A DNA stretch of 64,000 nucleotides from Rhizobium sp. WYJ-E13 (GTDB lineage: Bacteria; Pseudomonadota; Alphaproteobacteria; Rhizobiales; Rhizobiaceae). Made by a program: the position numbers and the translations under genes. The DNA is taken from assembly GCF_018987265.1 (NCBI RefSeq), contig NZ_CP076854.1, positions 248,001 through 312,000 of the forward strand. Reading direction: 5' to 3'. Positions within the stretch are counted from its first letter, which is position 1; every line of letters begins with the position of its first letter. The notes under the pieces were generated by a model that worked only from the letters and a program-made list of their open reading frames with translations, was not told the DNA's origin and did not search any database. This document shows, one piece after another, positions 4,028-52,279 of the stretch.

Positions 4028-5223
4028 CAGCGTATCACCGAGCCGTTTTCGGCGACGAGGCGGCCTTGCTTGAAGACGCGGCGCGGTTTCGGAACTGCGA
4101 CGACGGCCTCCGGTACATGCTCGGCCGTGAGCGTGACGAAATCGGCCTTTGCGCCGACCTCGATCCCGTAGCCTTCCAGCCGCATCGCCTTGGCGCCGCC
4201 TGATGTGACCACGTCGAAAGCGGCGCTGAGTTCCGCATCACTGAAGAAACCGGAACGGTAGGCGATAATCTCTGCCCGGCGCAGCATGTCGCCATCCCCG
4301 AAGGGCCACCAGGAATCGCGGATATTGTCGCTGCCGCTGAAGACATTGACGCCGGCAGCGCGCAGCAGGGTTACAGGAGGAAAATTGTGGTTGCCGGGCG
4401 CGTTGGTCATGATCGAGACGCCGCTTTTGGCGATCAGCATGGCAATCTTCTTTGCGGCTTCCGGCGCGAGATCACCAAGACCATAGGCATGGCTGACGGC
4501 GACATGCCCCTGCATGCCAAGCGCGGTCGTACGAGCACAGATCTCCTCGATCGTCATGGCGCCGAGCGTGCCCGCGTCATGGAGATGGATATCGACGTCG
4601 ACGCCGCGCCTTTCGGCAATGTCGAAGACCACGTCGAGATGGCCCTTGATGTCGCGGTCGAAGGAGAGTGGATCAAGCCCGCCGACGAGATTGGCACCCA
4701 TCGCGATCGCCTCGTCCATCAGCTCCGGTGTACCGGGGCTCTTGAGGATGCCGCTCTGCGGGAAGGCGACGAGCTGGATGTCGATGATATCAGTGTAGTC
4801 CTCGCGAACCTTCAGGATGGTTTCGAGCGACTTCAGGCCGACCGATCCATCGACCATCACGTGGCTGCGCATCTGTAGGGCGCCGTTAGAAATGCAGAGA
4901 TCGAGCTGGTTGCGAGCGCGTTCGTCCATGGGCGCTGCGACCGCCATATTCTCGGCTTGAAAGGCGACGCGCTCATGCACGTCGAAGCCATTGGTGCACG
5001 GTTTGTGCGGGATCCACTTGTCGCCGTAGAAGCTGGTGTCGAGATGGATATGGCCCTCGACGAAGCTCGGCACGAGAAGGGCTCCGTCGATATCAACCAC
5101 GTTTGCCGCGCTGGCGTCTGAGCCCGCCGGTCCTATCGCAGTGATCCGGCCGTCCTGAACCACGATATCGTTCAGAGTGCCGTCGGCGAGCTTTGCGTTG
5201 GCGAAAACTGTTTCCCTGCCCAC
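4027..5223 (-). CDS. Cytosine-deaminase-like amidohydrolase
   Basis: A 398-residue amidohydrolase. A GTG start at 5223 is preferred over the upstream ATG at 5340 because it follows GGAAAGGAACACAA and begins where family homology begins (GRETVFANAKLADG). The metal site looks complete: EGHIHLD, the IHLHDAGT strand, VSHAYG, and FSGSDNIRDSWWPFG with the catalytic Asp. This makes it the more canonical of the two amidohydrolases in the operon. It is the first enzyme gene after a remnant of a possible transporter subunit and the GntR regulator. It probably deaminates or hydrolyses an imported N-heterocycle or amide. The substrate cannot be told from the sequence. Confidence 0.87.
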   Translation of the reverse strand: MGRETVFANAKLADGTLNDIVVQDGRITAIGPAGSDASAANVVDIDGALLVPSFVEGHIHLDTSFYGDKWIPHKPCTNGFDVHERVAFQAENMAVAAPMDERARNQLDLCISNGALQMRSHVMVDGSVGLKSLETILKVREDYTDIIDIQLVAFPQSGILKSPGTPELMDEAIAMGANLVGGLDPLSFDRDIKGHLDVVFDIAERRGVDVDIHLHDAGTLGAMTIEEICARTTALGMQGHVAVSHAYGLGDLAPEAAKKIAMLIAKSGVSIMTNAPGNHNFPPVTLLRAAGVNVFSGSDNIRDSWWPFGDGDMLRRAEIIAYRSGFFSDAELSAAFDVVTSGGAKAMRLEGYGIEVGAKADFVTLTAEHVPEAVVAVPKPRRVFKQGRLVAENGSVIR

Positions 5224-5246
5224 TTGTGTTCCTTTCCCCTCTATTA

Positions 5247-5459
5247 TCAGTCGGCCACCGCCCAGTGCGGGGCCGGCTGTTCTGCAGCGATGGAGGATCG
5301 GTTCTGCGGCAGCATACCCTGCACACCTTCGATCAGCCATGTCATGTCCTTGATGTCGTTCTCAGAGAGCTCCTGATCGGGGGCGACTTTCGCCTTACCG
5401 TTCTGGTCCTTGATCTCACTCGCAAGGGCTTCCGGCGATATTCGGGCGATGACAGCATT
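5247..5459 (-). pseudogene. 3' remnant of a lost gene, possibly a BMP-type substrate-binding protein
   Basis: On the minus strand a frame without a plausible start reads ISPEALASEIKDQNGKAK, then ELSENDIKDMTWLIEGVQG, and stops at 5247, 24 nt before the amidohydrolase start. It looks like a real coding C-terminus: a charged helix, normal rhizobial codon use and a Trp. It resembles the tail of periplasmic basic-membrane-protein (PnrA-like) solute-binding proteins. In-frame stops occur immediately upstream. A second open stretch (about 5500-5640, minus) ends at a stop near 5495. The region 5224-5705 otherwise holds no intact gene. Best reading: a deletion removed a transporter gene, leaving its last 70 codons. 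The family call is tentative. Confidence 0.4.
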
Positions 5460-5677
5460 GCATGCGACATGAGCAGAATCCAGTCTACAGCATCCTGAGT
5501 TTCAGGTATGCAATATGGATGCCAAACTGTATCGCGTGTAGCGTCAGGCAGAGCGCTACGACCTCATTGGCCGGAATCACTTGGGGAAAATTGGAATTAA
5601 AGGCCAGGGAGGCGTCGATCGAATTACCGGCCATCGCGCGGCCACGAGGCGCTATGTCTACATATTTTACACAAATC

Positions 5678-5685
5678 TTGTATAC
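5678..5685. promoter_or_regulatory. TTGTATAC site, candidate GntR operator copy
   Basis: TTGTATAC matches the core found twice in front of the GntR gene (6427-6460). It lies just downstream of the GntR stop codon and upstream of the amidohydrolase operon. It could be the operator for a second promoter serving the enzymes. It is a single short match. Confidence 0.35.
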
Positions 5686-5705
5686 GTGATTGAAAAGCTG
5701 GCAGT

Positions 5706-6404
5706 TCAGCCGGTGACGCGGCTCGAAAAGCGCGACAGGATGGAACCGATGTCCGGCTCTTTTGCAAGATCATCCTCGATCAGTGCGCGGCTTTCGACGG
5801 ATGATAGATGCTCGTCCATCAAGTGCTCCGCGCTGGCCAGATCGCCCTTTTTTAATGCGTTGATGAGGCCGGAATGCTCACTGATTGCACATTCGCTGGA
5901 ATGCGGCCGGCTATACATGGCAAGGATGAGCGAGCAGCGTGAAACAAGTTCGGAGAGATAACGCTCGAGCAGCGCATTACCGGACAATTCGGCGAGCTTC
6001 AGGTGGAACTCGCCCGCCAGCCGAGTTGACAGGCGCACATCGCCTTTGGCATGTGCGGCTTCCTCTTCCTGCACATGTTCCCGCAACAGTTTTTCGATCG
6101 CGGGGCTCCAGCGCTTGATGACAGCCTTCATCACCTCCCGTTCGAGTGCGCGGCGAATGGCAAAGGCATCGCGCGCTTCCTCAAGACTTGGCTGGGCGAC
6201 GGTGGCCGTGCGCTTATGGTAAGTGTCGACCAGTCCCTGCGCCTGCAGCTTGGCAAGTACGGTGCGCACGAGCGTTCGACTCATGGAGAAATGCCGGCCG
6301 ATCTCGTCCTCGGGAAGTTTTGTCCCGGCTTTGAGAGCCTGCTCGATAATGGCCTGTCGCAGTGTGCGGTGGGCGATTTTCACACGATCGGGATTGGATG
6401 GCAT
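5706..6404 (-). CDS. GntR family (FCD-type) transcriptional regulator
   Basis: A 232-residue regulator. The N-terminal winged helix (about residues 8-75) contains LPEDEIGRHFSMSRTLVRTVLAKLQAQGLV. It is followed by an all-helical FCD ligand domain (about 85-220) with the usual Asp/His metal-type positions. FadR-subfamily members bind small organic acids or amides and repress adjacent catabolic operons. The gene is co-directional with and upstream of the two amidohydrolases and the GGT, so it is likely their local regulator. A GTTGTATAC inverted repeat upstream of its start is the candidate autoregulatory operator. Confidence 0.92.
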   Translation of the reverse strand: MPSNPDRVKIAHRTLRQAIIEQALKAGTKLPEDEIGRHFSMSRTLVRTVLAKLQAQGLVDTYHKRTATVAQPSLEEARDAFAIRRALEREVMKAVIKRWSPAIEKLLREHVQEEEAAHAKGDVRLSTRLAGEFHLKLAELSGNALLERYLSELVSRCSLILAMYSRPHSSECAISEHSGLINALKKGDLASAEHLMDEHLSSVESRALIEDDLAKEPDIGSILSRFSSRVTG

Positions 6405-40964: not shown

Positions 40965-41987
40965 TTATTGCAGCGTTCGGCCCTGGAGCTGCCCCGCGGC
41001 GAAGTCCGGTACGACAGTGGTCGCTCCAGCGCCGTCAAGGCCGGTCGCGACGACCGAGACGCGGAACCGGCCGTCCAAGCTGCGGTCGAAGATCGCGCCG
41101 ACGACGATTTCGGCGTCGTCCTGCACTTCGTCGCGAATGCGGCTGGCGGCCTCGTCGACTTCGAAGAGCGTCATGTCCGAGCCGCCGGAGATCGAGATCA
41201 GCACGCCCTTGGCGCCTCTCATCGAAATATCGTCGAGCAGCGGGTTGGCGATCGCAGCTTCCGCCGCCTTCATCGCGCGGGCCTCGCCGGCCGCTTCGCC
41301 CGTGCCCATCATCGCCCGGCCCATGCCGCGCATGACCGATTTCACATCGGCGAAATCGAGGTTGATCAGGCCTTCCTTGACGATCAAGTCGGTGATGCAG
41401 CCCACGCCGGAATAGAGCACGCGGTCTGCTGTCATGAAGGCATCGGCGAAGGTGGTCTTCGCGTCCGCAATGCGGAAAAGATTCTGGTTCGGAATGACGA
41501 TGACGGTATCGGCCGCCTGGCGCAGCGCCTCGATGCCGGCTTCAGCCATCTTCATGCGGCGATTGCCTTCAAAGGTGAAGGGCTTGGTGACGACGCCGAC
41601 CGTGAGGATGCCGGCCGAGCGGGCCGCATGCGCAATGACGGGTGCTGCACCCGTGCCGGTGCCACCGCCCATGCCGGCGGTGACGAAACACATATGCGAG
41701 CCGCTCAGGTGATCCATGATCTCGTCGAGCGATTCCTCGGCGGCGGCGCGCCCGACCTCCGGAAGGGAGCCGGCGCCGAGGCCCTCGGTGACATGCGCAC
41801 CGAGCTGGATGCGGCGCGAAGCCTTGGAGGTTGCCAGCACCTGGGCATCCGTATTGGCGGCGATGAAGTCGACACCCGCCAGTTTCTCGGCGATCATGTT
41901 GTTGATCGCGTTTCCGCCGCCGCCGCCGACGCCAATCACCGTAATCTGCGGCCGTAGTCCCGTAATGCCGCTCTTGGCGTCTGTCAT
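40965..41987 (-). CDS. ftsZ: Short FtsZ paralogue (FtsZ2-type)
   Basis: A 340-residue tubulin-like GTPase; the ATG at 41987 follows AAGGAGAGTTCG. The GTP site is intact: [17 protein letters not shown], the tubulin signature [13 protein letters not shown], and the T7 loop [21 protein letters not shown] that completes the neighbouring subunit's active site. It stops soon after the globular core ([10 protein letters not shown]). It therefore lacks the long linker and conserved C-terminal peptide that tether FtsZ to FtsA. Rhizobia carry such a second FtsZ in addition to the essential one. It can probably co-assemble with or modulate the main Z-ring but not anchor it. Monocistronic, divergent from glpR. 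Confidence 0.92.
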
Positions 41988-42175
41988 CGAACTCTCCTTT
42001 TGTCCCTCGTGCGTGCTCCGCCCGTCGCGGTCCGCGAATCGCACGTCACATTAAGCATGCAACAAGGCAGAGGCGGGGCGGGCTTTGCAATATCCAAAGG
42101 GATTTCAGCACTCGATCATATTCAAATTGATCCTCAAGGATCGCATCAGCCGCGATTGCTTTGCCTCGAACCGAA

Positions 42176-42215: not shown

Positions 42216-42989
42216 ATGTTTCTGTCGGATCGTCAGGGGAAGATCGTCGCGCTTGCGAAAACGTCGGGCCGGGTGCTGGTCGATGATCTGGCAACGCAGT
42301 TTGCCGTGACACCGCAAACGATCCGCAAGGATCTGAACGATCTTTGCGATGCGCAGCTCCTGACGCGTATTCACGGCGGCGCAACCTTCCCGCGGGGCAC
42401 GGAAAACGTCCGTTACGACGCAAGGCGTCAGATCGCCGCGAGCGAAAAACAGGCGATCGGTGTTGCCGCAGCCGACCTCATCCCCAACAACAGTTCGCTC
42501 TTCATCAATATCGGCACGACGACGGAAGCCGTGGGTGAAGCGCTCTCCGATCATCACGAGTTGATGGTGATCACCAATAATATCAATGTCGCCAATAGAT
42601 TACGACTGATAGACCATATCGAGGTGGTGATTGCCGGCGGCGTGGTGCGCCAGTCCGATGGCGGCATCGTCGGCGAGGCGGCCGTCGATTTCATCCGGCA
42701 GTTCAAGGTCGATTATGCCGTGATCGGCGCTTCGGCGATTGATCCGGATGGTGCGCTTCTCGATTATGATTTTCGCGAGGTGAAGGTGGCGCAGGCGATC
42801 ATCGCCAATGCCAGGCATGTTATCCTGGTTGCGGATTCGACCAAGTTCGAGCGCACCGCGCCGGTGCGGATCGGCCAGATTTCGCAGGTCCATACCTTCA
42901 TCACCGACCAATGCGATTCGCCGTCCATCCGCAATATCTGTCAGCAGAGCGGCGTCGTTCTGATCGAAGCGGCGAAAGCAAACCGCTGA
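42216..42989 (+). CDS. glpR: DeoR family regulator GlpR
   Basis: A 257-residue DeoR-type repressor. The ATG at 42216 (FLSDRQGKIVALAKTSGRV) follows GGGAGGGCGCGC. The wHTH occupies about residues 1-58 (VDDLATQFAVTPQTIRKDLNDLCDAQLLTRIHGGA). The ISOCOT-type sugar-phosphate domain follows (about 75-230: IGTTTEAVGEAL, VIAGGVVRQSDGGIVG). It is immediately upstream of glpD and the glycerol transporter, so the likely effector is glycerol-3-phosphate. It probably represses both itself and the glpD operon through TTCG-containing sites. Confidence 0.92.
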   Translation: MFLSDRQGKIVALAKTSGRVLVDDLATQFAVTPQTIRKDLNDLCDAQLLTRIHGGATFPRGTENVRYDARRQIAASEKQAIGVAAADLIPNNSSLFINIGTTTEAVGEALSDHHELMVITNNINVANRLRLIDHIEVVIAGGVVRQSDGGIVGEAAVDFIRQFKVDYAVIGASAIDPDGALLDYDFREVKVAQAIIANARHVILVADSTKFERTAPVRIGQISQVHTFITDQCDSPSIRNICQQSGVVLIEAAKANR

Positions 42990-43054: not shown

Positions 43055-43103
43055 TAATGGTTGGGGGGAACCGTTGCGCTGTTCTGGTGCAACGAGGGGG
43101 AAC

Positions 43104-44633
43104 ATGGGCCGAATCCACGATATTTTCGTCATTGGCGGCGGGATCAACGGCTGCGGCATTGCGCGTGATGCGGTTGGCCGTGGTTATACGGTCGCGCTTG
43201 CCGAGATGAACGATTTCGCCTCCGGTACCTCGTCGGGCGCCACCAAGCTCATCCATGGCGGGTTGCGGTATCTCGAACATTACGAGTTCCGTCTGGTGCG
43301 TGAATCCTTGATGGAACGCGAGATCCTCTGGGCCATGGCCCCGCATATCATCTGGCCGCTGCGCTTCGTGCTGCCCTACCACCGGGGGGGCATCCGGCCG
43401 GCCTGGATGATCCGGCTTGGCCTCTTCCTCTATGACCATTTGGGTGGCCGCAAGCTGTTGCCGCCGACGGCAGTGCTCGACATGCGCACCGATCCGGCCG
43501 CCAGACCGCTGAAGGCGCTCTTCACCAAAGCTTTCGAATATTCCGACGGCTGGGTCGACGATGCCCGCATGGTGGTGCTGAATGCCCGCGATGCCGCCGA
43601 CAAGGGGGCGCTGATCATGCCGCGCACCAAGGTCGTGTCAGCCAAGCAAGAGAAGGGTGCCCAGGAAGGTGGCATCTGGACGATCGAGACGGTCAACACG
43701 GTGACGGGCACGAGCGAGCGGCATCAGGCCCGCATGCTGATCAATGCCGCCGGTCCCTGGGTCGATCATGTCATCCGCTCCGCATTCGGCCATAACGAGG
43801 CCCACCATGTGCGCCTCGTGCAGGGAAGCCACATCATCGTCAGGAAGAAGTTCGAGGACCCGCGCGCCTATTTCTTCCAGAACCCCGACAACCGCATCAT
43901 CTTCGCCATCCCCTACGAGACCGACTTCACCCTGATCGGCACCACCGACCGTGACTACACCGCCGATCCGAAGGACGTGAAGATCTCCGAGGAGGAGACC
44001 ATCTATCTCTGCAATGCGGCCTCGGAATATTTCAAGGAGCCGGTCAGACCCGAGGATATCGTCTGGACCTATTCGGCGGTGCGCCCGCTCTTCGACGACG
44101 GGGCCTCCAAGGCGCAGGAAGCCACACGTGACTACGTCTTGAAGGTCGAGGGCAAGGCGGGCGAGGCGCCGCTTCTCAATGTCTTCGGCGGCAAGCTCAC
44201 CACCTACCGGCGTCTGTCGGAACATGCGCTTGAGAAGATCGGCGAGGCGATCGGCGTCAAGGGCAGGCCGTGGACGGCGGGCAGCCATCTGCCGGGCGGT
44301 GATTTCCCGGTGCAGGGTTATGAGGGCGAAGTTAGCAAGCTGAAGAGCCGCTATCCGTTCCTGACTGATGCCCATGCCCGCCGGCTCACCCGCCGCTATG
44401 GCACCAGGGCAACCGTCCTTCTCGGCAGCGCCCAGAGGATCGAGGACCTCGGCAGGCTCTTCGGTGCCGATCTCTATGAGGCCGAGGTCGAATATCTCGT
44501 CCAATATGAATGGGCCAGAAACGCGCAAGACGTGCTCTGGCGAAGAACAAAGGATGGCCTGCGTCTTTCGAAAGAGCAGGTGAGTTTACTGGAGGAGTAC
44601 ATGGCTGCCATGCCGGCGAAGATGGCCGGGTAA
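43104..44633 (+). CDS. glpD: Aerobic glycerol-3-phosphate dehydrogenase GlpD
   Basis: A 509-residue FAD enzyme; the ATG at 43104 follows GAGGGGAAC. The N-terminal FAD fold is IFVIGGGINGCGIARDAVGRG, then ASGTSSGATKLIHGGLRYLEHYEF, which is characteristic of GlpD. Later motifs are NAAGPWVDHV, and TYSAVRPLFDDGASKAQEATRDY, which binds the phosphate of G3P. The C-terminal helical domain ends near residue 505. It oxidises sn-glycerol-3-phosphate to dihydroxyacetone phosphate at the inner membrane and passes electrons to ubiquinone. It heads the glycerol operon, followed by the transporter and glycerol kinase. Confidence 0.96.
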   Translation: MGRIHDIFVIGGGINGCGIARDAVGRGYTVALAEMNDFASGTSSGATKLIHGGLRYLEHYEFRLVRESLMEREILWAMAPHIIWPLRFVLPYHRGGIRPAWMIRLGLFLYDHLGGRKLLPPTAVLDMRTDPAARPLKALFTKAFEYSDGWVDDARMVVLNARDAADKGALIMPRTKVVSAKQEKGAQEGGIWTIETVNTVTGTSERHQARMLINAAGPWVDHVIRSAFGHNEAHHVRLVQGSHIIVRKKFEDPRAYFFQNPDNRIIFAIPYETDFTLIGTTDRDYTADPKDVKISEEETIYLCNAASEYFKEPVRPEDIVWTYSAVRPLFDDGASKAQEATRDYVLKVEGKAGEAPLLNVFGGKLTTYRRLSEHALEKIGEAIGVKGRPWTAGSHLPGGDFPVQGYEGEVSKLKSRYPFLTDAHARRLTRRYGTRATVLLGSAQRIEDLGRLFGADLYEAEVEYLVQYEWARNAQDVLWRRTKDGLRLSKEQVSLLEEYMAAMPAKMAG

Positions 44634-44675: not shown

Positions 44676-45752
44676 ATGCTGGAGCTGCGAAACGCCGCCA
44701 AGATGGTGGGCGCGGACTATCATATCTATCCGACCGATCTGGTTCTCGAGCGTGGCACGCTGAATGTCCTGCTCGGGCCGACCCTGTCGGGCAAGACGTC
44801 GCTGATGCGGCTGATGGCGGGGCTTGACCGGCCGACCGAAGGCTCCGTGTATTTCGACGGCGCCGATGTCACCGGCATGCCGGTGCAGAAGCGCAACGTT
44901 GCCATGGTCTACCAGCAGTTCATCAACTATCCGGCACTGACCGTCTACGAGAACATCGCCTCGCCGATGCGCATTTCCGGCAAGGATGCCGCCACGATCG
45001 ACCGCGACGTGCGCAAGGCGGCCGAACTTCTGAAACTGACGCCCTATCTCGATCGCACGCCGCTCAATCTCTCCGGCGGCCAGCAGCAGCGCACCGCCCT
45101 TGCGCGCGCCCTCGTCAAGAATGCCAGCCTCGTGTTGATGGACGAGCCGCTTGCCAATCTCGACTACAAGCTGCGCGAGGAATTGCGCGAGGAACTGCCG
45201 AAGATCTTTGCCCAGTCGGGGGCGATTTTCGTTTATGCCACGACCGAGCCTTCCGAGGCGCTGCTGCTCGGTGGCAATACCGCGACGCTGAACGCCGGCC
45301 AGGTCACGCAGTTCGGGCCTACGATCGAGGTCTATCGCCGGCCTGTCGATCTTGCCACCGCCGGCATCTTTGCCGATCCGCCGCTGAATTCCATCGAAGT
45401 CACCAAGTCAGGTCACGTCTTTGTGCGCCCAGGCGGGGGCTCGCTTCCGGTTCCTTCACATCTCGCAATGGTGCCGGACGGACCTGTGACCATCGCCTTT
45501 CATCCGCACCATCTCGGTCTTGCGCCGCAGACCGGCGATGCGGCCCGCCTGCAGGCGCGCACGCTGGTCTCCGAAATCACCGGTTCGGAGAGCTTCGTCC
45601 ATCTGGACTATGACGGCGTGCGCTGGGTGATGCTGGCGCATGGCATTCACGACATCGATCCGGACATGGACATCGAGGCCTTTCTCGACATGCGCCACTT
45701 GATGGCCTTCGGCCCCGACGGGCGCGCCATCGCCACGGTCGCAAAGGTTTAG
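44676..45752 (+). CDS. glpS: Glycerol ABC transporter ATP-binding subunit GlpS
   Basis: A 358-residue importer ATPase; the ATG at 44676 starts LELRNAAKMVGADYHIYPTD. Walker A is GPTLSGKT (residues 34-41), the signature LSGGQQQR (132-139) and Walker B LVLMDEPLANLD. The switch His of the H-loop is replaced by Thr190 (VYATTEPSEA instead of VYVTHDQTEA). The protein is thus expected to be a weak or non-catalytic partner on its own ATP site. A TOBE-like C-terminal domain follows. It pairs with GlpT, encoded 9 nt downstream, to drive the GlpP/GlpQ permease. Confidence 0.92.
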   Translation: MLELRNAAKMVGADYHIYPTDLVLERGTLNVLLGPTLSGKTSLMRLMAGLDRPTEGSVYFDGADVTGMPVQKRNVAMVYQQFINYPALTVYENIASPMRISGKDAATIDRDVRKAAELLKLTPYLDRTPLNLSGGQQQRTALARALVKNASLVLMDEPLANLDYKLREELREELPKIFAQSGAIFVYATTEPSEALLLGGNTATLNAGQVTQFGPTIEVYRRPVDLATAGIFADPPLNSIEVTKSGHVFVRPGGGSLPVPSHLAMVPDGPVTIAFHPHHLGLAPQTGDAARLQARTLVSEITGSESFVHLDYDGVRWVMLAHGIHDIDPDMDIEAFLDMRHLMAFGPDGRAIATVAKV

Positions 45753-45761
45753 GAGAGCACA

Positions 45762-46832
45762 ATGGCACGTATCACGCTCGACCATATCCGCCACGCCTAC
45801 GGCGCCAATCCGAAGAGCGACAAGGATTATTCGCTGAAGGAGGTCGACCACGAGTGGAACGACGGCGGCGCCTATGCGCTGCTCGGCCCTTCTGGCTGCG
45901 GCAAGACCACGCTGCTCAACATCATCTCCGGTCTCCTGCAGCCGTCGCACGGACGCATCCTGTTCGACGGCAAGGATGTGACCGACCTTTCGACCCAAAG
46001 CCGTAACATCGCCCAGGTCTTCCAGTTTCCGGTCATCTACGACACGATGACGGTCTACGATAATCTCGCCTTTCCGCTGCGCAACCGCGGCGTAGCCGAA
46101 GCGGATGTCGACCGGCGCGTCCGCGATATCCTCGAGATGATCGACCTCGCCGGCTGGGCGCGACGCAAGGCGCAAGGACTGACGGCCGACCAGAAGCAGA
46201 AGATCTCGCTTGGGCGCGGGCTGGTGCGCAACGACGTCAATGCCATCCTGTTCGATGAGCCGCTGACCGTCATCGATCCGCATATGAAATGGGTGCTGCG
46301 CTCGCAGCTGAAACGGCTGCACAAGCAGTTCGGCTTCACCATGGTCTACGTCACCCACGATCAGACGGAGGCGCTGACCTTCGCCGATAAGGTCGTCGTC
46401 ATGTATGACGGCCAGATCGTCCAGATCGGCACGCCGGCCGAACTCTTCGAGCGCCCAAGACACACCTTCGTCGGCTATTTCATCGGCTCGCCCGGCATGA
46501 ACGTCATGCCGGCAAAGATCGACGGCAGCACCGTCAGGGTCGGCGACGAGACGCTGACGCTCGATTATGCGCCGAAGACCGAGGGCGCGGCCAAGACCGA
46601 GCTCGGCATCCGGCCGGAATTCATCCGACTCGGACGCGAAGGCATGCCTGTCTCGGTGAGCAAGGTCGAGGATATCGGCCGGCAGAAGATCGTGCGTGCT
46701 CGTTTTGCTGACCAGCCGATTGCAATCGTCGTGCCCGAGGACGGCGAAATCCCTGATGACGCCCGGGTCAGCTTTGATCCCGCGGCTATCAGCATTTACG
46801 CCGACAGCTGGCGCGTCGGCAGGGAGGCCTGA
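45762..46832 (+). CDS. glpT: Glycerol ABC transporter ATP-binding subunit GlpT
   Basis: A 356-residue ATPase that is not the MFS antiporter GlpT of E. coli. Walker A is GPSGCGKT (42-49), the Q-loop VFQFPVIYDTMT, Walker B ILFDEPLTVID with the catalytic Glu, and the H-loop VTHDQTEAL (His199). The ABC signature is degenerate: LTADQKQK (140-147) replaces LSGGQQQR. The defect is complementary to that of GlpS, so the heterodimer should have one normal and one degenerate site. It overlaps no neighbour but follows GlpS by 9 nt in the operon. A TOBE domain follows. Confidence 0.92.
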   Translation: MARITLDHIRHAYGANPKSDKDYSLKEVDHEWNDGGAYALLGPSGCGKTTLLNIISGLLQPSHGRILFDGKDVTDLSTQSRNIAQVFQFPVIYDTMTVYDNLAFPLRNRGVAEADVDRRVRDILEMIDLAGWARRKAQGLTADQKQKISLGRGLVRNDVNAILFDEPLTVIDPHMKWVLRSQLKRLHKQFGFTMVYVTHDQTEALTFADKVVVMYDGQIVQIGTPAELFERPRHTFVGYFIGSPGMNVMPAKIDGSTVRVGDETLTLDYAPKTEGAAKTELGIRPEFIRLGREGMPVSVSKVEDIGRQKIVRARFADQPIAIVVPEDGEIPDDARVSFDPAAISIYADSWRVGREA

Positions 46833-46834
46833 CC

Positions 46835-47701
46835 ATGCAGAAGACGTGGAACAACAAAGCCTGGTTTCTGGTCCTGCCGGTGCTGCTGCTCGTGGCGTTC
46901 TCGGCCGTCATCCCGCTGATGACCGTCGTCAACTATTCGGTTCAGGATACGTTCGGCAATAACGAGTTCTTCTGGGCCGGCACCGACTGGTTCGTCCAGA
47001 CCCTGCATTCCGACCGGTTCTGGGACGCATTGCAGCGCAACCTGCTCTTCTCCTTCATCATCCTGGCGCTGCAAATTCCGCTCGGCATCTTCATCGCGCT
47101 CAACATGCCGAAATCCGGGCCGGGTGTTCCCGTCTGCCTCGTCTTGATGGCGCTGCCGCTGCTCATTCCGTGGAACGTCGTCGGCACGATCTGGCAGGTC
47201 TTCGGCCGTGTCGATATCGGCCTGCTCGGCCATACGCTGGAAGCGATCGGCCTCGACTACAATTATGTGCGCGACCCGGTCGATGCCTGGGTGACCATCA
47301 TCATCATGGACGTCTGGCACTGGACGAGCCTCGTTGTGCTGCTCTGCTATGCCGGCCTCGTTTCGATCCCGGATGCCTATTATCAGGCCGCCAAGATCGA
47401 TGGGGCCTCGCGCTGGTCCGTGTTCCGCTACATCCAGTTGCCGAAGATGAAGCGTGTGCTTTTGATCGCCGTGCTCTTACGTTTCATGGACAGTTTCATG
47501 ATCTATACCGAACCCTTCGTCGTCACCGGCGGCGGTCCCGGCAACTCGACGACCTTCCTCTCCATCGATCTGGTGAAGATGGCGGTCGGCCAGTTCGATC
47601 TCGGCCCGGCGGCGGCCATGTCGATCATCTACTTCCTCATCGTCCTGCTGCTCTCCTGGGTGTTCTACACCGTGATGACCAGCGGCGACGCGAACGGTTG
47701 A
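46835..47701 (+). CDS. glpP: Glycerol ABC transporter permease GlpP
   Basis: A 288-residue permease with six helices, starting 2 nt after the GlpT stop. It has the MalF-type EAA loop PDAYYQAAKIDGASRWSVFRYIQLPKMK, followed by VTGGGPGNSTTFLS. The large first periplasmic loop (NNEFFWAGTDWFVQTL) is typical of this class. It forms the glycerol channel with GlpQ and receives glycerol from the binding protein GlpV. GlpP is part of the glpDSTPQ-type operon known from Rhizobium. Confidence 0.93.
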   Translation: MQKTWNNKAWFLVLPVLLLVAFSAVIPLMTVVNYSVQDTFGNNEFFWAGTDWFVQTLHSDRFWDALQRNLLFSFIILALQIPLGIFIALNMPKSGPGVPVCLVLMALPLLIPWNVVGTIWQVFGRVDIGLLGHTLEAIGLDYNYVRDPVDAWVTIIIMDVWHWTSLVVLLCYAGLVSIPDAYYQAAKIDGASRWSVFRYIQLPKMKRVLLIAVLLRFMDSFMIYTEPFVVTGGGPGNSTTFLSIDLVKMAVGQFDLGPAAAMSIIYFLIVLLLSWVFYTVMTSGDANG

Positions 47702-47715
47702 AGGAGGGCACAGAC

Positions 47716-48537
47716 ATGACCAGCAAATACAAACCTGCCGGCAGCTTTTCCTGGCTCGTCCCGACCGTTTACATTATCTTCCTGATCCTGCCGATCTACT
47801 GGCTCGTCAATATGAGCTTCAAGGAGAATGCCGAGATCACCGGCGCCTTCTCGCTCTGGCCGACGAACCCGACGCTGCGCAACTATGCGGTCATCTTCAC
47901 CGATCCGTCCTGGTACAACGGCTATATCAACTCAATCATCTACGTGGTGATGAACACGGTGATCTCGGTCGCCGCAGCACTGCCGGCTGCCTACGCCTTC
48001 TCGCGCTACCGCTTCCTCGGCGACAAGCACCTGTTCTTCTGGCTGCTTACCAACCGCATGGCGCCGCCGGCCGTCTTCGCGCTGCCCTTCTTCCAGCTTT
48101 ATTCGGCTTTTGGGCTGATCGACACGCATATTGCTGTGGCGCTGGCGCACTGCCTCTTCAACGTGCCGCTGGCGGTCTGGATCCTCGAAGGTTTCATGTC
48201 GGGCGTGCCGAAGGAGATCGACGAGACCGCCTATATCGATGGCTATTCGTTCCCGCGCTTCTTCGTGAAGATCTTCATGCCGCTGATTGCAAGTGGTGTC
48301 GGCGTCGCTGCCTTCTTCTGCTTCATGTTCTCGTGGGTTGAGCTCTTGCTCGCCCGCACGCTGACGACGACGGCGGCAAAGCCGATCTCGGCGATCATGA
48401 CGCGCACGGTTTCGGCGGCCGGCATGGACTGGGGCGTGCTGGCGGCAGCCGGCGTGCTGACCATCATTCCCGGCGCGCTCGTTATCTATTTCGTTCGCAA
48501 CTATATCGCCAAGGGCTTTGCCCTGGGCCGCGTCTGA
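47716..48537 (+). CDS. glpQ: Glycerol ABC transporter permease GlpQ
   Basis: A 273-residue MalG-type permease; the ATG at 47716 follows AAGGAGGGCAC. Six helices. The EAA loop is PKEIDETAYIDGYSFPRFFVKIFMPLIA, and the protein ends RNYIAKGFALGRV. Helix-rich segments such as WLVPTVYIIFLILPIYWLV and CFMFSWVELLLA place it in the inner membrane next to GlpP. It is not related to the E. coli phosphodiesterase of the same name. It is followed 12 nt later by the DUF2160 gene in the same operon. Confidence 0.93.
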   Translation: MTSKYKPAGSFSWLVPTVYIIFLILPIYWLVNMSFKENAEITGAFSLWPTNPTLRNYAVIFTDPSWYNGYINSIIYVVMNTVISVAAALPAAYAFSRYRFLGDKHLFFWLLTNRMAPPAVFALPFFQLYSAFGLIDTHIAVALAHCLFNVPLAVWILEGFMSGVPKEIDETAYIDGYSFPRFFVKIFMPLIASGVGVAAFFCFMFSWVELLLARTLTTTAAKPISAIMTRTVSAAGMDWGVLAAAGVLTIIPGALVIYFVRNYIAKGFALGRV

Positions 48538-48549
48538 GGAGGATCGGAC

Positions 48550-48831
48550 ATGAGCTTTTCCTGGATGGCCTGGACGCTGCCGACGGCGCTCTTCTTCCTG
48601 ACGATCCTTCTGCTGCTGATCGGCATGAGCGTCTGGGAATATTTTTCGCCGGGAGGCGCGCCGCGCGTTGGCTTGCTTCGTTTCGAGACGACGCGCGGCG
48701 ACCGGCTGTTCATTTCGCTGCTTGGCGCAGCATTCATTCATCTTGCATGGCTGGGTCTGGGTGGACCCAACCTGTGGTGGGCTCTTGGCATCTCCGTGAT
48801 CTACGCCATCGGTGTGTTCCGTTACGTGTGA
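48550..48831 (+). CDS. DUF2160 small membrane protein of the glycerol operon (GlpU-type)
   Basis: A 93-residue integral membrane protein with two to three helices (WTLPTALFFLTILLLLIGMSV, FISLLGAAFIHLAWLGL, LWWALGISVIYAIGVF). It carries a conserved cytoplasmic loop PRVGLLRFETTRGDRLFIS. This is the DUF2160 family, found almost only between glycerol-transporter permease and binding-protein genes. Its role is not known; a stabilising or accessory subunit of the transporter is the obvious guess. The ATG follows GAGGATCGGAC. In Rhizobium this gene position has been called glpU. Confidence 0.88.
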   Translation: MSFSWMAWTLPTALFFLTILLLLIGMSVWEYFSPGGAPRVGLLRFETTRGDRLFISLLGAAFIHLAWLGLGGPNLWWALGISVIYAIGVFRYV

Positions 48832-48910: not shown

Positions 48911-50641
48911 ATGCGACGGCATCTACTAACGACGACAGCAGGCATTTTGCTGGCTATGGCGGGCTCCGCTTATGCCGGCATGGATGAGGCGAAGACCTTC
49001 CTAGACAAGGAGATCGGCGACGTCTCGACACTGACGCGTGCCGACCAGGAAAAGGAAATGCAGTGGTTCATCGACGCTGCCAAGCCTTTCGCCGGCATGG
49101 ACATCAAGGTGGTTTCGGAAACGATTACCACACACGAATATGAATCGAAGGTGCTGGCGCCTGCCTTCACCGCGATTACCGGCATCAAGATCACCCACGA
49201 CCTGATTGGCGAGGGTGACGTCGTTGAAAAGCTGCAGACGCAGATGCAGTCGGGCGAGAATATCTATGACGCCTATATCAACGACTCGGACCTGATCGGC
49301 ACCCATTGGCGCTATCAGCAGGCCCGCAGCCTGACCGACTGGATGGCCAACGAAGGCAAGGACGTCACCAATCCTGGCCTCGACATCGACGATTTCATCG
49401 GCAAGTCCTTCACCACGGCGCCGGACGGCAAGCTCTATCAGCTGCCCGACCAGCAGTTCGCAAACCTCTACTGGTTCCGCTACGATTGGTTCAACGACGA
49501 GAAGAACAAGGCGGACTTCAAGGCGAAGTACGGCTACGATCTCGGCGTGCCGGTCAACTGGTCGGCTTATGAGGACATTGCCGAGTTCTTCACCGGCCGC
49601 GATATCGACGGCAAGAAGGTCTACGGTCACATGGACTACGGCAAGAAGGATCCGTCGCTCGGCTGGCGCTTCACCGATGCTTGGCTCTCCATGGCCGGCA
49701 ATGGCGACAAGGGTATCCCGAACGGCAAGCCCGTCGATGAGTGGGGCATCAAGGTCGATGAGAACTCCCGCCCGGTCGGCTCCTGCGTGGCCCGTGGCGG
49801 CGATACCAACGGCCCGGCAGCGGTCTATTCCATCCAGAAATATCTGGACTGGATGAAGGCGTATGCACCGGCCGCCGCTCAAGGCATGACCTTCTCCGAA
49901 TCCGGCCCGGTCCCCTCGCAGGGCGAAGTCGCCCAGCAGATGTTCACCTACACGGCCTTCACCGCCGACTTCGTCAAGCCGGGCCTGCCGGTCGTCAACG
50001 CAGACGGCACGCCGAAATGGCGTTTCGCACCGAGCCCGCATGGCGTCTACTGGAAGGACGGCATGAAGCTCGGCTATCAGGATGCCGGCTCCTGGACGCT
50101 GATGAAGTCCACGCCTGATGATCGCGCCAAGGCGGCCTGGCTCTATGCCCAGTTCGTCACGTCAAAGACTGTCGATGTGAAGAAGAGCCACATGGGCCTG
50201 ACCTTCATCCGCCAGTCGACGCTGGACCACAAGTCCTTCACCGATCGTGCGCCGAAGCTCGGCGGCCTGATCGAGTTCTACCGTTCGCCGGCCCGTCTGC
50301 AGTGGTCGCCGACCGGTACCAACGTTCCTGACTATCCGAAGCTCGCGCAGCTCTGGTGGCAGGCGATCGGTGATGCCTCCTCCGGCGCAAAGACTGCGCA
50401 GGAAGCCATGGACTCGCTTTGCTCCGAGCAGGAAAAGGTGCTGCAGCGCCTCGAGCGCGCCAAGGTTCAGGGCGATATCGGCCCAAAACTCGCCGAGGAG
50501 CATGATCTCGCTTACTGGAACGCGGATGCGGTGAAGAAGGGCAACCTCGCTCCGCAGCTGAAGATCGAAAACGAGAAGGAAAAGCCCGTCACCGTCAACT
50601 ATGACGAGCTCGTCAAGAGCTGGGCTGAAGCCAAGAAATAG
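48911..50641 (+). CDS. glpV: Glycerol ABC transporter substrate-binding protein GlpV
   Basis: A 576-residue periplasmic binding protein; the ATG at 48911 follows GGAGGATATT. The signal is MRRHLLTTTAGILLAMAGSAYA. At this length it is larger than most family-1 binding proteins (about 420), which is typical of the glycerol type. Visible conserved blocks include ETITTHEYESKVLAPAFTAIT and YINDSDLIGTHWRY, and LYWFRYDWFND. It delivers glycerol to GlpP/GlpQ. It is followed by a hairpin and then glpK. Confidence 0.93.
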   Translation: MRRHLLTTTAGILLAMAGSAYAGMDEAKTFLDKEIGDVSTLTRADQEKEMQWFIDAAKPFAGMDIKVVSETITTHEYESKVLAPAFTAITGIKITHDLIGEGDVVEKLQTQMQSGENIYDAYINDSDLIGTHWRYQQARSLTDWMANEGKDVTNPGLDIDDFIGKSFTTAPDGKLYQLPDQQFANLYWFRYDWFNDEKNKADFKAKYGYDLGVPVNWSAYEDIAEFFTGRDIDGKKVYGHMDYGKKDPSLGWRFTDAWLSMAGNGDKGIPNGKPVDEWGIKVDENSRPVGSCVARGGDTNGPAAVYSIQKYLDWMKAYAPAAAQGMTFSESGPVPSQGEVAQQMFTYTAFTADFVKPGLPVVNADGTPKWRFAPSPHGVYWKDGMKLGYQDAGSWTLMKSTPDDRAKAAWLYAQFVTSKTVDVKKSHMGLTFIRQSTLDHKSFTDRAPKLGGLIEFYRSPARLQWSPTGTNVPDYPKLAQLWWQAIGDASSGAKTAQEAMDSLCSEQEKVLQRLERAKVQGDIGPKLAEEHDLAYWNADAVKKGNLAPQLKIENEKEKPVTVNYDELVKSWAEAKK

Positions 50642-50782: not shown

Positions 50783-52279
50783 ATGAGTGGCCATATCCTT
50801 GCCATCGACCAGGGCACGACATCGTCGCGGGCAATTCTCTTCGACCCTCAGATGCGGATCGCATCGTCGGCCCAGACGGAGATCACCCAGTATTTCCCGC
50901 AGACCGGCTGGGTGGAGCATGATGCGGCCGAAATCTGGGACACGGTGCTTTCGACCGCGCGCGATGCGCTGGCAAGGAGCGGCGTGGCGCCTGGTGCGAT
51001 TGCTGCCGTCGGTATCACCAACCAGCGCGAAACGGCCGTCGTCTGGGAAAGAGCCACCGGCCGGCCGCTCTACAAAGCAATCGTCTGGCAGGACCGGCGC
51101 ACGGCTGAAATGTGCGACCGGCTGAAAGTCGATGGCTACGAAAAGCTTTTTACCGCCAAGACCGGCCTGCTCCTCGATCCCTATTTCTCGGGCACGAAGC
51201 TGCGCTGGCTGCTCGACAATGTCGAAGGCCTACGCACCCGGGCGGAGGCTGGCGAGGTCTGTTTCGGCACCATCGACAGCTGGATCATCTACAAGCTGAC
51301 CGGCGGGCGGGCGCATGTCACCGATGCGACCAACGCCTCGCGCACCCTGCTCTACAATATCGCCGAGAATTGCTGGGACGACGAGCTTCTCGAGATCCTG
51401 CGCATCCCGCGTGGCCTGCTGCCTGAGGTCAAGGACAGTGCCGGCACCTTCGGTTTGGTCGATCCCGGCATTTTCGGCGCCGCGATCCCGATCCTCGGGG
51501 TTGCGGGCGACCAGCAGGCGGCAACGATCGGCAACGCCTGTTTCGAGCCGGGCATGATGAAATCGACCTACGGCACCGGCTGTTTTGCGCTCCTGAACAC
51601 CGGTGATGATATGGTGCGGTCGAAGAACCGGCTTTTGACCACCATTGCTTACCGCCTGAACGGCAAGACGACCTATGCGCTGGAGGGATCGATCTTCATC
51701 GCGGGGGCTGCAGTGCAATGGCTCCGCGACGGCCTCGGCATCATCGAAAATGCGTCGGAAACCGGAGCATTGGCTGACAGAGCCGATCCGCAGCAAAGGG
51801 TCTATGTCGTGCCCGCCTTTACCGGGCTCGGCGCTCCCTATTGGGATCCGGAGGCACGCGGCGCGATCTTCGGCCTGACGCGCAACAGCGGCCCGGCGGA
51901 ATTGACGCGCGCTGTGCTGGAATCGGTTGCCTACCAGACACTCGACCTTCTGGTGGCGATGCGGAGCGATTGGGGCGACCATCCGATCGAAACCGTCCTT
52001 CGCGTCGATGGCGGCATGTCGGCCTCCGAATGGACCATGCAGCATCTCGCCAATATACTTTCGAGCCCCGTCGATCGGGCCGCAACGCTGGAGACGACGG
52101 CGCTTGGTGCGGCCTGGCTTGCAGGATCGCAGGCGGGTGTCTGGCCGGGTCAAAGCGAGTTTGCCCGCGCCTGGGCGCGCGACCGCAGCTTTCAGCCTGA
52201 CATGACGGAGATCGACCGGCAGGCGAGAATTGTCGGATGGCGCAATGCGATTGCGCGAACACTCAGTACTGTGACCTGA
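50783..52279 (+). CDS. glpK: Glycerol kinase GlpK
   Basis: A 498-residue FGGY-family kinase; the ATG at 50783 follows AGGAAAGAG. Typical motifs are [17 protein letters not shown] (phosphate-binding), [18 protein letters not shown] and [15 protein letters not shown], then [17 protein letters not shown]. In the C-terminal half are [28 protein letters not shown] and the ATP-binding segments around [10 protein letters not shown]. It phosphorylates imported glycerol to sn-glycerol-3-phosphate, the substrate of GlpD and probably the GlpR inducer. It is the last gene of the glycerol cluster. Confidence 0.96.

Follow-up and report, generated by a model that had tools for sequence, protein, structure and literature searches.

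In the putative glycerol importer of Rhizobium sp. WYJ-E13 the two ATPases, GlpS and GlpT, depart from the canonical ABC motifs at five elements, all of which map to the same composite ATP site of the predicted heterodimer. This arrangement, with one composite site altered and the other canonical, was found in 228 of the 230 tandem glpS-glpT pairs compared, the other two being unreadable. Judging from the motifs, we consider it quite probable that the two proteins form an obligate heterodimer that binds two ATP and hydrolyses mainly or only at the canonical site, approximately once per transport cycle.

The glp operon of Rhizobium sp. WYJ-E13

The window, i.e., the whole stretch of 64,000 nucleotides that was analysed (positions 248,001 to 312,000 of the 2.15-Mb contig NZ_CP076854.1), contains a glycerol operon with the following genes:

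42216..42989, + strand, glpR, regulator of the DeoR/GlpR family, below the curated NCBIfam cut-off, start inferred
43074..44633, + strand, glpD, glycerol-3-phosphate dehydrogenase, passes the curated NCBIfam cut-off
44676..45752, + strand, glpS, MalK-type ABC ATPase (gives site I its altered Walker motifs, A-loop and H-loop, and site II its canonical signature and D-loop)
45762..46832, + strand, glpT, MalK-type ABC ATPase (gives site II its canonical Walker motifs, A-loop and H-loop, and site I its altered signature and D-loop)
46835..47701, + strand, glpP, permease, same operon as glpS and glpT
47713..48537, + strand, glpQ, permease, same operon as glpS and glpT, start taken from the translation
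48550..48831, + strand, glpU, small membrane protein (DUF2160)
48911..50641, + strand, glpV, putative substrate-binding protein (by position and by the annotation of its match in R. johnstonii 3841), start codon inferred
50783..52279, + strand, glpK, glycerol kinase, passes the curated NCBIfam cut-off, start inferred

The limits of glpS and glpT coincide with those of an earlier note on this DNA, made from its letters. The order regulator, glpD, ATPase, ATPase, permease, permease, DUF2160, binding protein and glpK is that of plasmid pRL9 of R. johnstonii 3841, and the GlpT proteins of the two operons are 94.7% identical. On this basis the window system, which holds the operon glpD, S, T, P, Q, U (DUF2160), V and K, is a member of the GlpSTPQUV glycerol ABC importers, known from R. 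leguminosarum VF39 (Ding et al., 2012, described in an excerpt of PMC7912956), and orthology points to glycerol as its substrate. GlpV (48911-50641) had no match in Pfam or NCBIfam at 1e-3. Near the operon, on the minus strand (40965-42044), lies a gene for an FtsZ-like protein, recognised by eye from its translation.

Motifs of the two ATPases and their assignment to composite sites

The nucleotide-binding and signature elements were read directly from both proteins, as follows:

44706..44708, + strand, GlpS A-loop position, Val11, non-aromatic (aromatic in 29/29 paralogues)
44775..44798, + strand, GlpS Walker A, GPTLSGKT (34-41), Leu37 at the ABC glycine, Lys40 kept
45069..45083, + strand, GlpS signature, LSGGQ (132-136), canonical
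45135..45164, + strand, GlpS Walker B, LMDEP (154-158), and D-loop, LANLD, canonical, catalytic Glu157 kept
45240..45251, + strand, GlpS H-loop, TTEP (189-192), Thr190 at the His position
45798..45800, + strand, GlpT A-loop, Tyr13, canonical
45885..45908, + strand, GlpT Walker A, GPSGCGKT (42-49), canonical
46017..46031, + strand, GlpT Q-loop, VFQFP (86-90), Gln88 kept, then FPVIYD versus SYALYP in most paralogues
46179..46193, + strand, GlpT signature, LTADQ (140-144), Ala142-Asp143 in place of Gly-Gly
46248..46277, + strand, GlpT Walker B, LFDEP (163-167), Glu166 kept, and D-loop, LTVID, altered (canonical LSNLD)
46356..46358, + strand, GlpT H-loop, His199 (VTHDQ, 197-201), canonical

The earlier note had reported a threonine at the GlpS H-loop (ATTEP, 188-192), the LTADQ signature of GlpT at 140-144 and a normal Walker A, Walker B and His199 in GlpT, and our reading agrees on every one of these (GPSGCGKT, LFDEP and VTHDQ for the last three). 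Its description of GlpS as normal in Walker A, Walker B and signature holds for LMDEP and LSGGQ and has to be corrected for Walker A, where position 37 is Leu and the solved MalK-type chains and 29/29 paralogues of the same genome have Gly. Leu37 still fits the general P-loop consensus. The two alterations it claimed, of H-loop and signature, are real, and the count rises to five with Leu37 and Val11 of GlpS and LTVID of GlpT.

Our assignment of motifs to sites rests on published ABC geometry. Each site of an ABC dimer takes Walker A, Walker B and the A-, Q- and H-loops from one subunit and the signature from the other (excerpt of PMC7756269), and in HlyB the H-loop of one subunit touches the D-loop of the other (excerpt of PMC6222333). 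Site I, with GlpS in cis and GlpT in trans, collects the five departures (Val11, Leu37, Thr190, LTADQ and LTVID) and keeps Lys40, Gln80, Asp156 and Glu157. Site II, with GlpT in cis and GlpS in trans, is canonical at all eight scored elements. The proposal of a single composite site for the altered GlpS H-loop and the altered GlpT signature, leaving the other site canonical, is thus supported, and the arrangement is kept in the relatives. A cis and a trans change would fall in the same site half of the time by chance, so that the weight lies in the conservation of the pattern and not in the coincidence of H-loop and signature.

Conservation of the pattern in tandem pairs

A total of 231 loci was compared, 151 of them found by whole-protein similarity to GlpT and 80 being the best among the pattern-scan matches listed. 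Both genes are present in 230; the remaining locus (L098), at a contig edge, is without glpS. The whole-protein-similarity subset comprises 150 pairs, in which identity to the window proteins goes down to 36% for GlpS and 48% for GlpT. The sequences are distinct in 227 of the 230 pairs, and several contigs of the pattern scan equal contigs of the other set in length, so that some genomes may be counted twice. Two loci were set aside, L207, with its GlpS spread over two reading frames, and L225, whose contig begins inside GlpS, which left 228 readable pairs.

In all 230 pairs glpS lies directly upstream of glpT, most commonly with a gap of 9 bases. Site I carried five departures in 216 of the 228 readable pairs and four in 12, one of these 12 being L223, which lacks the first 16 residues of GlpS and hence has an unread A-loop; site II was canonical in 229 of 230 rows, L207 being the exception. 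Among the 230 GlpS, the H-loop residue was Thr in 217 and Ser in 12 (1 unread), position 37 was Leu in 203, Gly in 9 and another residue in 17 (1 unread), and the A-loop position was Val in 208, Phe in 2 and another residue in 17 (3 unread). The signature Gly-Gly of GlpT was absent in 230/230, with Asp143 in 228. The D-loop V-I-D was also found in 230/230, a figure for which the fair count is the 150/150 of the similarity-found pairs (V170 and I171), because the word used in the pattern scan contained DEPLTVI. The search for canonical residues in homologues, which the earlier note had suggested as a check, gave no readable GlpS with His and no GlpT with Gly-Gly.

All 228 readable GlpS have Lys40, Gln80, Asp156 and Glu157, and Lys40, Gln80, Glu157 and the second signature Gly were invariant in 150/150 similarity-found pairs, for which reason we rejected decay of GlpS. 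Sequencing error was likewise rejected as a source of the odd motifs, given that the same motifs recur in relatives.

The nine GlpS with a P-loop Gly (L052, L057, L082, L084, L085, L086, L090, L093 and L110) all carry Ser instead of Thr at the H-loop, out of 12 with Ser in total, and the two states seem linked. In GlpT, the Q-loop stretch VFQFPVIYD (46017-46043), part of the canonical site and different from that of most paralogues, was kept in 228/230 relatives and may be due to a special contact with the permease.

Wider relatives and a Streptomyces pair

Searches for orthologues were positive in 30 of 41 near relatives (matches of at least 50% identity), 48 of 385 genomes of the class (E <= 1e-85) and 85 of 398 genomes of the phylum (E <= 1e-80). 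A similar pair is present on a Streptomyces plasmid, with GRTMAGKT, TTEP and LSGGQ in the GlpS-like protein and GPSGCGKT, THDQ, LTADD and LTVID in the GlpT-like one. The Streptomyces pair (L263, 1464-8080) has an alcohol dehydrogenase gene as its neighbour. The annotation of the stretch examined shows neither glpD nor glpK nor a DUF2160 gene, so that the substrate of this pair may not be glycerol.

The database relatives were the best 120 of thousands of matches per search, that is, near relatives of each query. Within this limit the H-loop was Thr in 120/120 close GlpS and in 121/121 rows of the Streptomyces type, query included, and the GlpT-like proteins listed from the Streptomyces pair had lost the second signature Gly in 120/120, with Val in the D-loop in 119/120 and His in 120/120. 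Other positions were looser among the best 120: Asp143 was replaced by Ala in 18/120 wider GlpT-like proteins, and of the wider GlpS-like rows (the best 120 plus the query) 6/121 had the P-loop Gly and 14/121 had Glu for the Q-loop Gln. Taken together with the 9 of 230 pairs with Gly, the 6 of 121 indicate that the change at Leu37 is not essential, and the 18 and 14 cases that neither Asp143 nor the kept Q-loop Gln is universal.

Paralogues, phylogeny and family

The 29 paralogues of the MalK/UgpC type come from 30 loci taken from 82 matches in the same genome, GlpS and GlpT being set aside. None of the 29 showed the asymmetric-site pattern; His at the H-loop and Gly-Gly in the signature are present in all of them, and 27 have Asn at the middle D-loop position. 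Two of them form a tandem pair with the signatures LAGGD and LSGGE and the D-loops LGTLD and LSSLD. This second importer with tandem MalK-type ATPases (L265, G000:C2:1725000-1737000, frames 4134-5231 and 5089-6231), whose ATPases are sisters in the tree, has a gene resembling Dak1/Dak2 dihydroxyacetone kinase and one for a PEP-utilising enzyme in its neighbourhood, and its sequences make another heterodimer possible.

A tree of 32 GlpS and 32 GlpT (from 32 of the 230 pairs, chosen by hand) and the 29 paralogues, built on the first 245-255 residues, recovered GlpS as one fully supported clade and GlpT as another, their long stems measuring 1.33 and 1.53 changes per column; the program warned that these long stems may attract each other. 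As each forms one clade, the motif states are to be read as conserved and not as independent events; the tree indicates that the change predates the sampled radiation and occurred once as far as seen.

The best NCBIfam model was UgpC, with 222.7 bits for GlpS and 286.1 for GlpT against a cut-off of 432, which by sequence places both as relatives and not members of UgpC or MalK proper. Pfam ABC_tran was found in both proteins and OB_MalK above its cut-off in GlpT; for GlpS, Pfam at 1e-3 gave neither an OB nor a TOBE domain, and some wider GlpS relatives are listed with TOBE. The combination of ABC_tran with a C-terminal regulatory domain of the MalK kind, as in MalK-type (CUT1) ATPases, was found. 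The predicted monomers are full-length MalK folds (mean pLDDT 88.0 for GlpS and 89.5 for GlpT), and in fold comparisons that are re-rankings of Foldseek hits the GlpS model aligns with MalK chains over residues 1-358.

A probable motor with one working site

From the motifs and their conservation we infer that GlpS and GlpT heterodimerise, that site I binds ATP but has lost hydrolysis, and that about one ATP is split per cycle. GlpS and GlpT would form the obligate heterodimeric motor of the GlpSTPQUV glycerol importer, in which site II (the GlpT Walker A/B and A-, Q- and H-loops with the GlpS LSGGQ and D-loop) would hydrolyse ATP. Site I (the GlpS Walker motifs and A-, Q- and H-loops with the GlpT LTADQ and LTVID) probably still binds Mg-ATP, because the Walker A Lys, Q-loop Gln and Walker B Asp and Glu are kept. 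Hydrolysis there would be very slow or nil, since site I is without the H-loop His, the signature glycines, the P-loop Gly, an aromatic A-loop and the usual D-loop; slow turnover is conceivable because the catalytic Glu157 is kept. Each cycle would thus cost the importer about one hydrolysis, and site I would serve as a weak ATP site with a mainly structural part.

Homodimers are the usual form of MalK-type ATPases, and each of the two subunits is predicted to have a complete MalK fold, so that GlpS and GlpT could act as separate homodimers on the same or on different permeases. A GlpS dimer would, however, be without His at its two sites and a GlpT dimer without LSGGQ, so that neither would have a canonical site, and the pairing of the genes in 230/230 also speaks against a reading that we find hardly credible. 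In each subunit it is exactly the half required for site II that has stayed canonical, a fact accounted for by a heterodimer but not by homodimers. Only slightly less improbable, and still very unlikely in our opinion, is a purely regulatory GlpS with a site I that binds no nucleotide: the altered A-loop and P-loop and the lack of an OB/TOBE match in Pfam at 1e-3 would fit it, whereas the 150/150 invariance of Lys40, Gln80 and Glu157 is unlike a decaying site, the GlpS model follows the MalK chains along its 358 residues and some wider relatives do have TOBE.

A divergent and functionally symmetric motor, in which both sites hydrolyse and Thr190, Glu157 and LTADQ make up an altered working site, deserves more attention, as Lys40, Gln80, Asp156 and Glu157 persist in every readable GlpS. 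We nevertheless regard it as unlikely, for all the altered elements, four or five in number, sit at the same site, and H-loop His mutants of HlyB, HisP and MalK, three ABC ATPases, keep less than 2% of their ATPase activity (excerpt of PMC6222333). The obligate heterodimer hydrolysing mainly or only at site II is the reading that we prefer.

For MalK, a mutation in a single subunit is reported to impair transport severely (Davidson and Sharma, 1997, cited in the excerpt of PMC6222333), and for this reason a MalK-type machine with one site would need compensating changes. A precedent may be found in ABCB1, where knocking out one site occludes ATP and arrests the cycle and three more changes at the knocked-out site weaken ATP binding and restore transport (excerpt of PMC7544095). 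By analogy, the A-, P- and D-loop changes of GlpS and GlpT could play the same weakening part. A more speculative proposal, towards which we are slightly more doubtful than inclined, is a one-stroke MalK-type motor in which one glycerol would be moved per ATP split at the GlpT-Walker site, the ATP at the GlpS-Walker site would be a weak latch, and the A-, P- and D-loop changes would compensate and prevent the unsplit ATP from locking the dimer, much like the weakening changes of ABCB11-like ABCB1, the design predating the split between the sampled Pseudomonadota and Streptomyces systems or having spread between them.

Comparison with known systems

MalK2 is a homodimer, and MalFGK2 is a standard model of a symmetric two-site importer. 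GlpS and GlpT differ from E. coli MalK2 and the other CUT1 importers (UgpC, SugC, AlgS) in being two diverged subunits with one altered site. If our reading is true, one catalytic site is enough to drive the MalK-type architecture, and a natural system becomes available for testing how many ATP a type I importer uses per substrate, the lopsided GlpST design being a natural test of one or two ATP splits per importer cycle. The function of degenerate sites, a puzzle in exporters, would then become open to study in a tractable bacterial importer.

In Cupriavidus, a related transporter is described with two named ATPases, and the excerpted text does not mention site asymmetry (PMC7912956). According to the same excerpt, derepression of this two-ATPase transporter makes C. 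metallidurans more resistant to zinc and cadmium, by a mechanism that its authors left open. A literature search, in which subscription journals were thinly covered, found no description of a degenerate site in a separate-subunit MalK-type importer, and none of GlpS/GlpT site asymmetry in titles and abstract openings. The earlier note had called such asymmetry, known from exporters, unusual for a sugar importer; the likeness to TAP stands, and the generalisation is too broad, since the importers RbsA and NupO, with fused ATPase domains, are described with one degenerate ATP site (excerpt of PMC11466899), and the novelty is limited accordingly to separate-subunit MalK-type importers. RbsA and NupO are fused polypeptides with a second Walker A without Lys, whereas GlpST consists of separate MalK-type subunits and keeps the Lys. 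For E. coli DppDF, a supplementary legend compares the ATPases with consensus and degenerate sites (excerpt of PMC12136057).

Degenerate sites are well known in exporters (excerpt of PMC7756269); TAP1/TAP2, TM287/288, CFTR, ABCG5/G8 and Pdr5 are examples. TAP offers a parallel: TAP1 has Gln for the H-loop His, the signature of TAP2 is LAA/VGQ, and the two changes, in different subunits, fall in one composite site (excerpts of PMC7756269 and PMC6222333). TAP also has Walker B Glu to Asp, a change that GlpS does not have (excerpt of PMC6222333). Replacement of the catalytic Walker B Glu is called a hallmark of the degenerate site in exporters (excerpt of PMC7544095), and Glu157 was found in 229 of 230 GlpS (1 unread), so that GlpST, by analogy, would resemble the exporter class in its working and is not filed there. 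Compared with these exporters, GlpST is an importer that keeps the Walker B Glu and has, in addition, Leu for the P-loop Gly and Val for the D-loop Asn.
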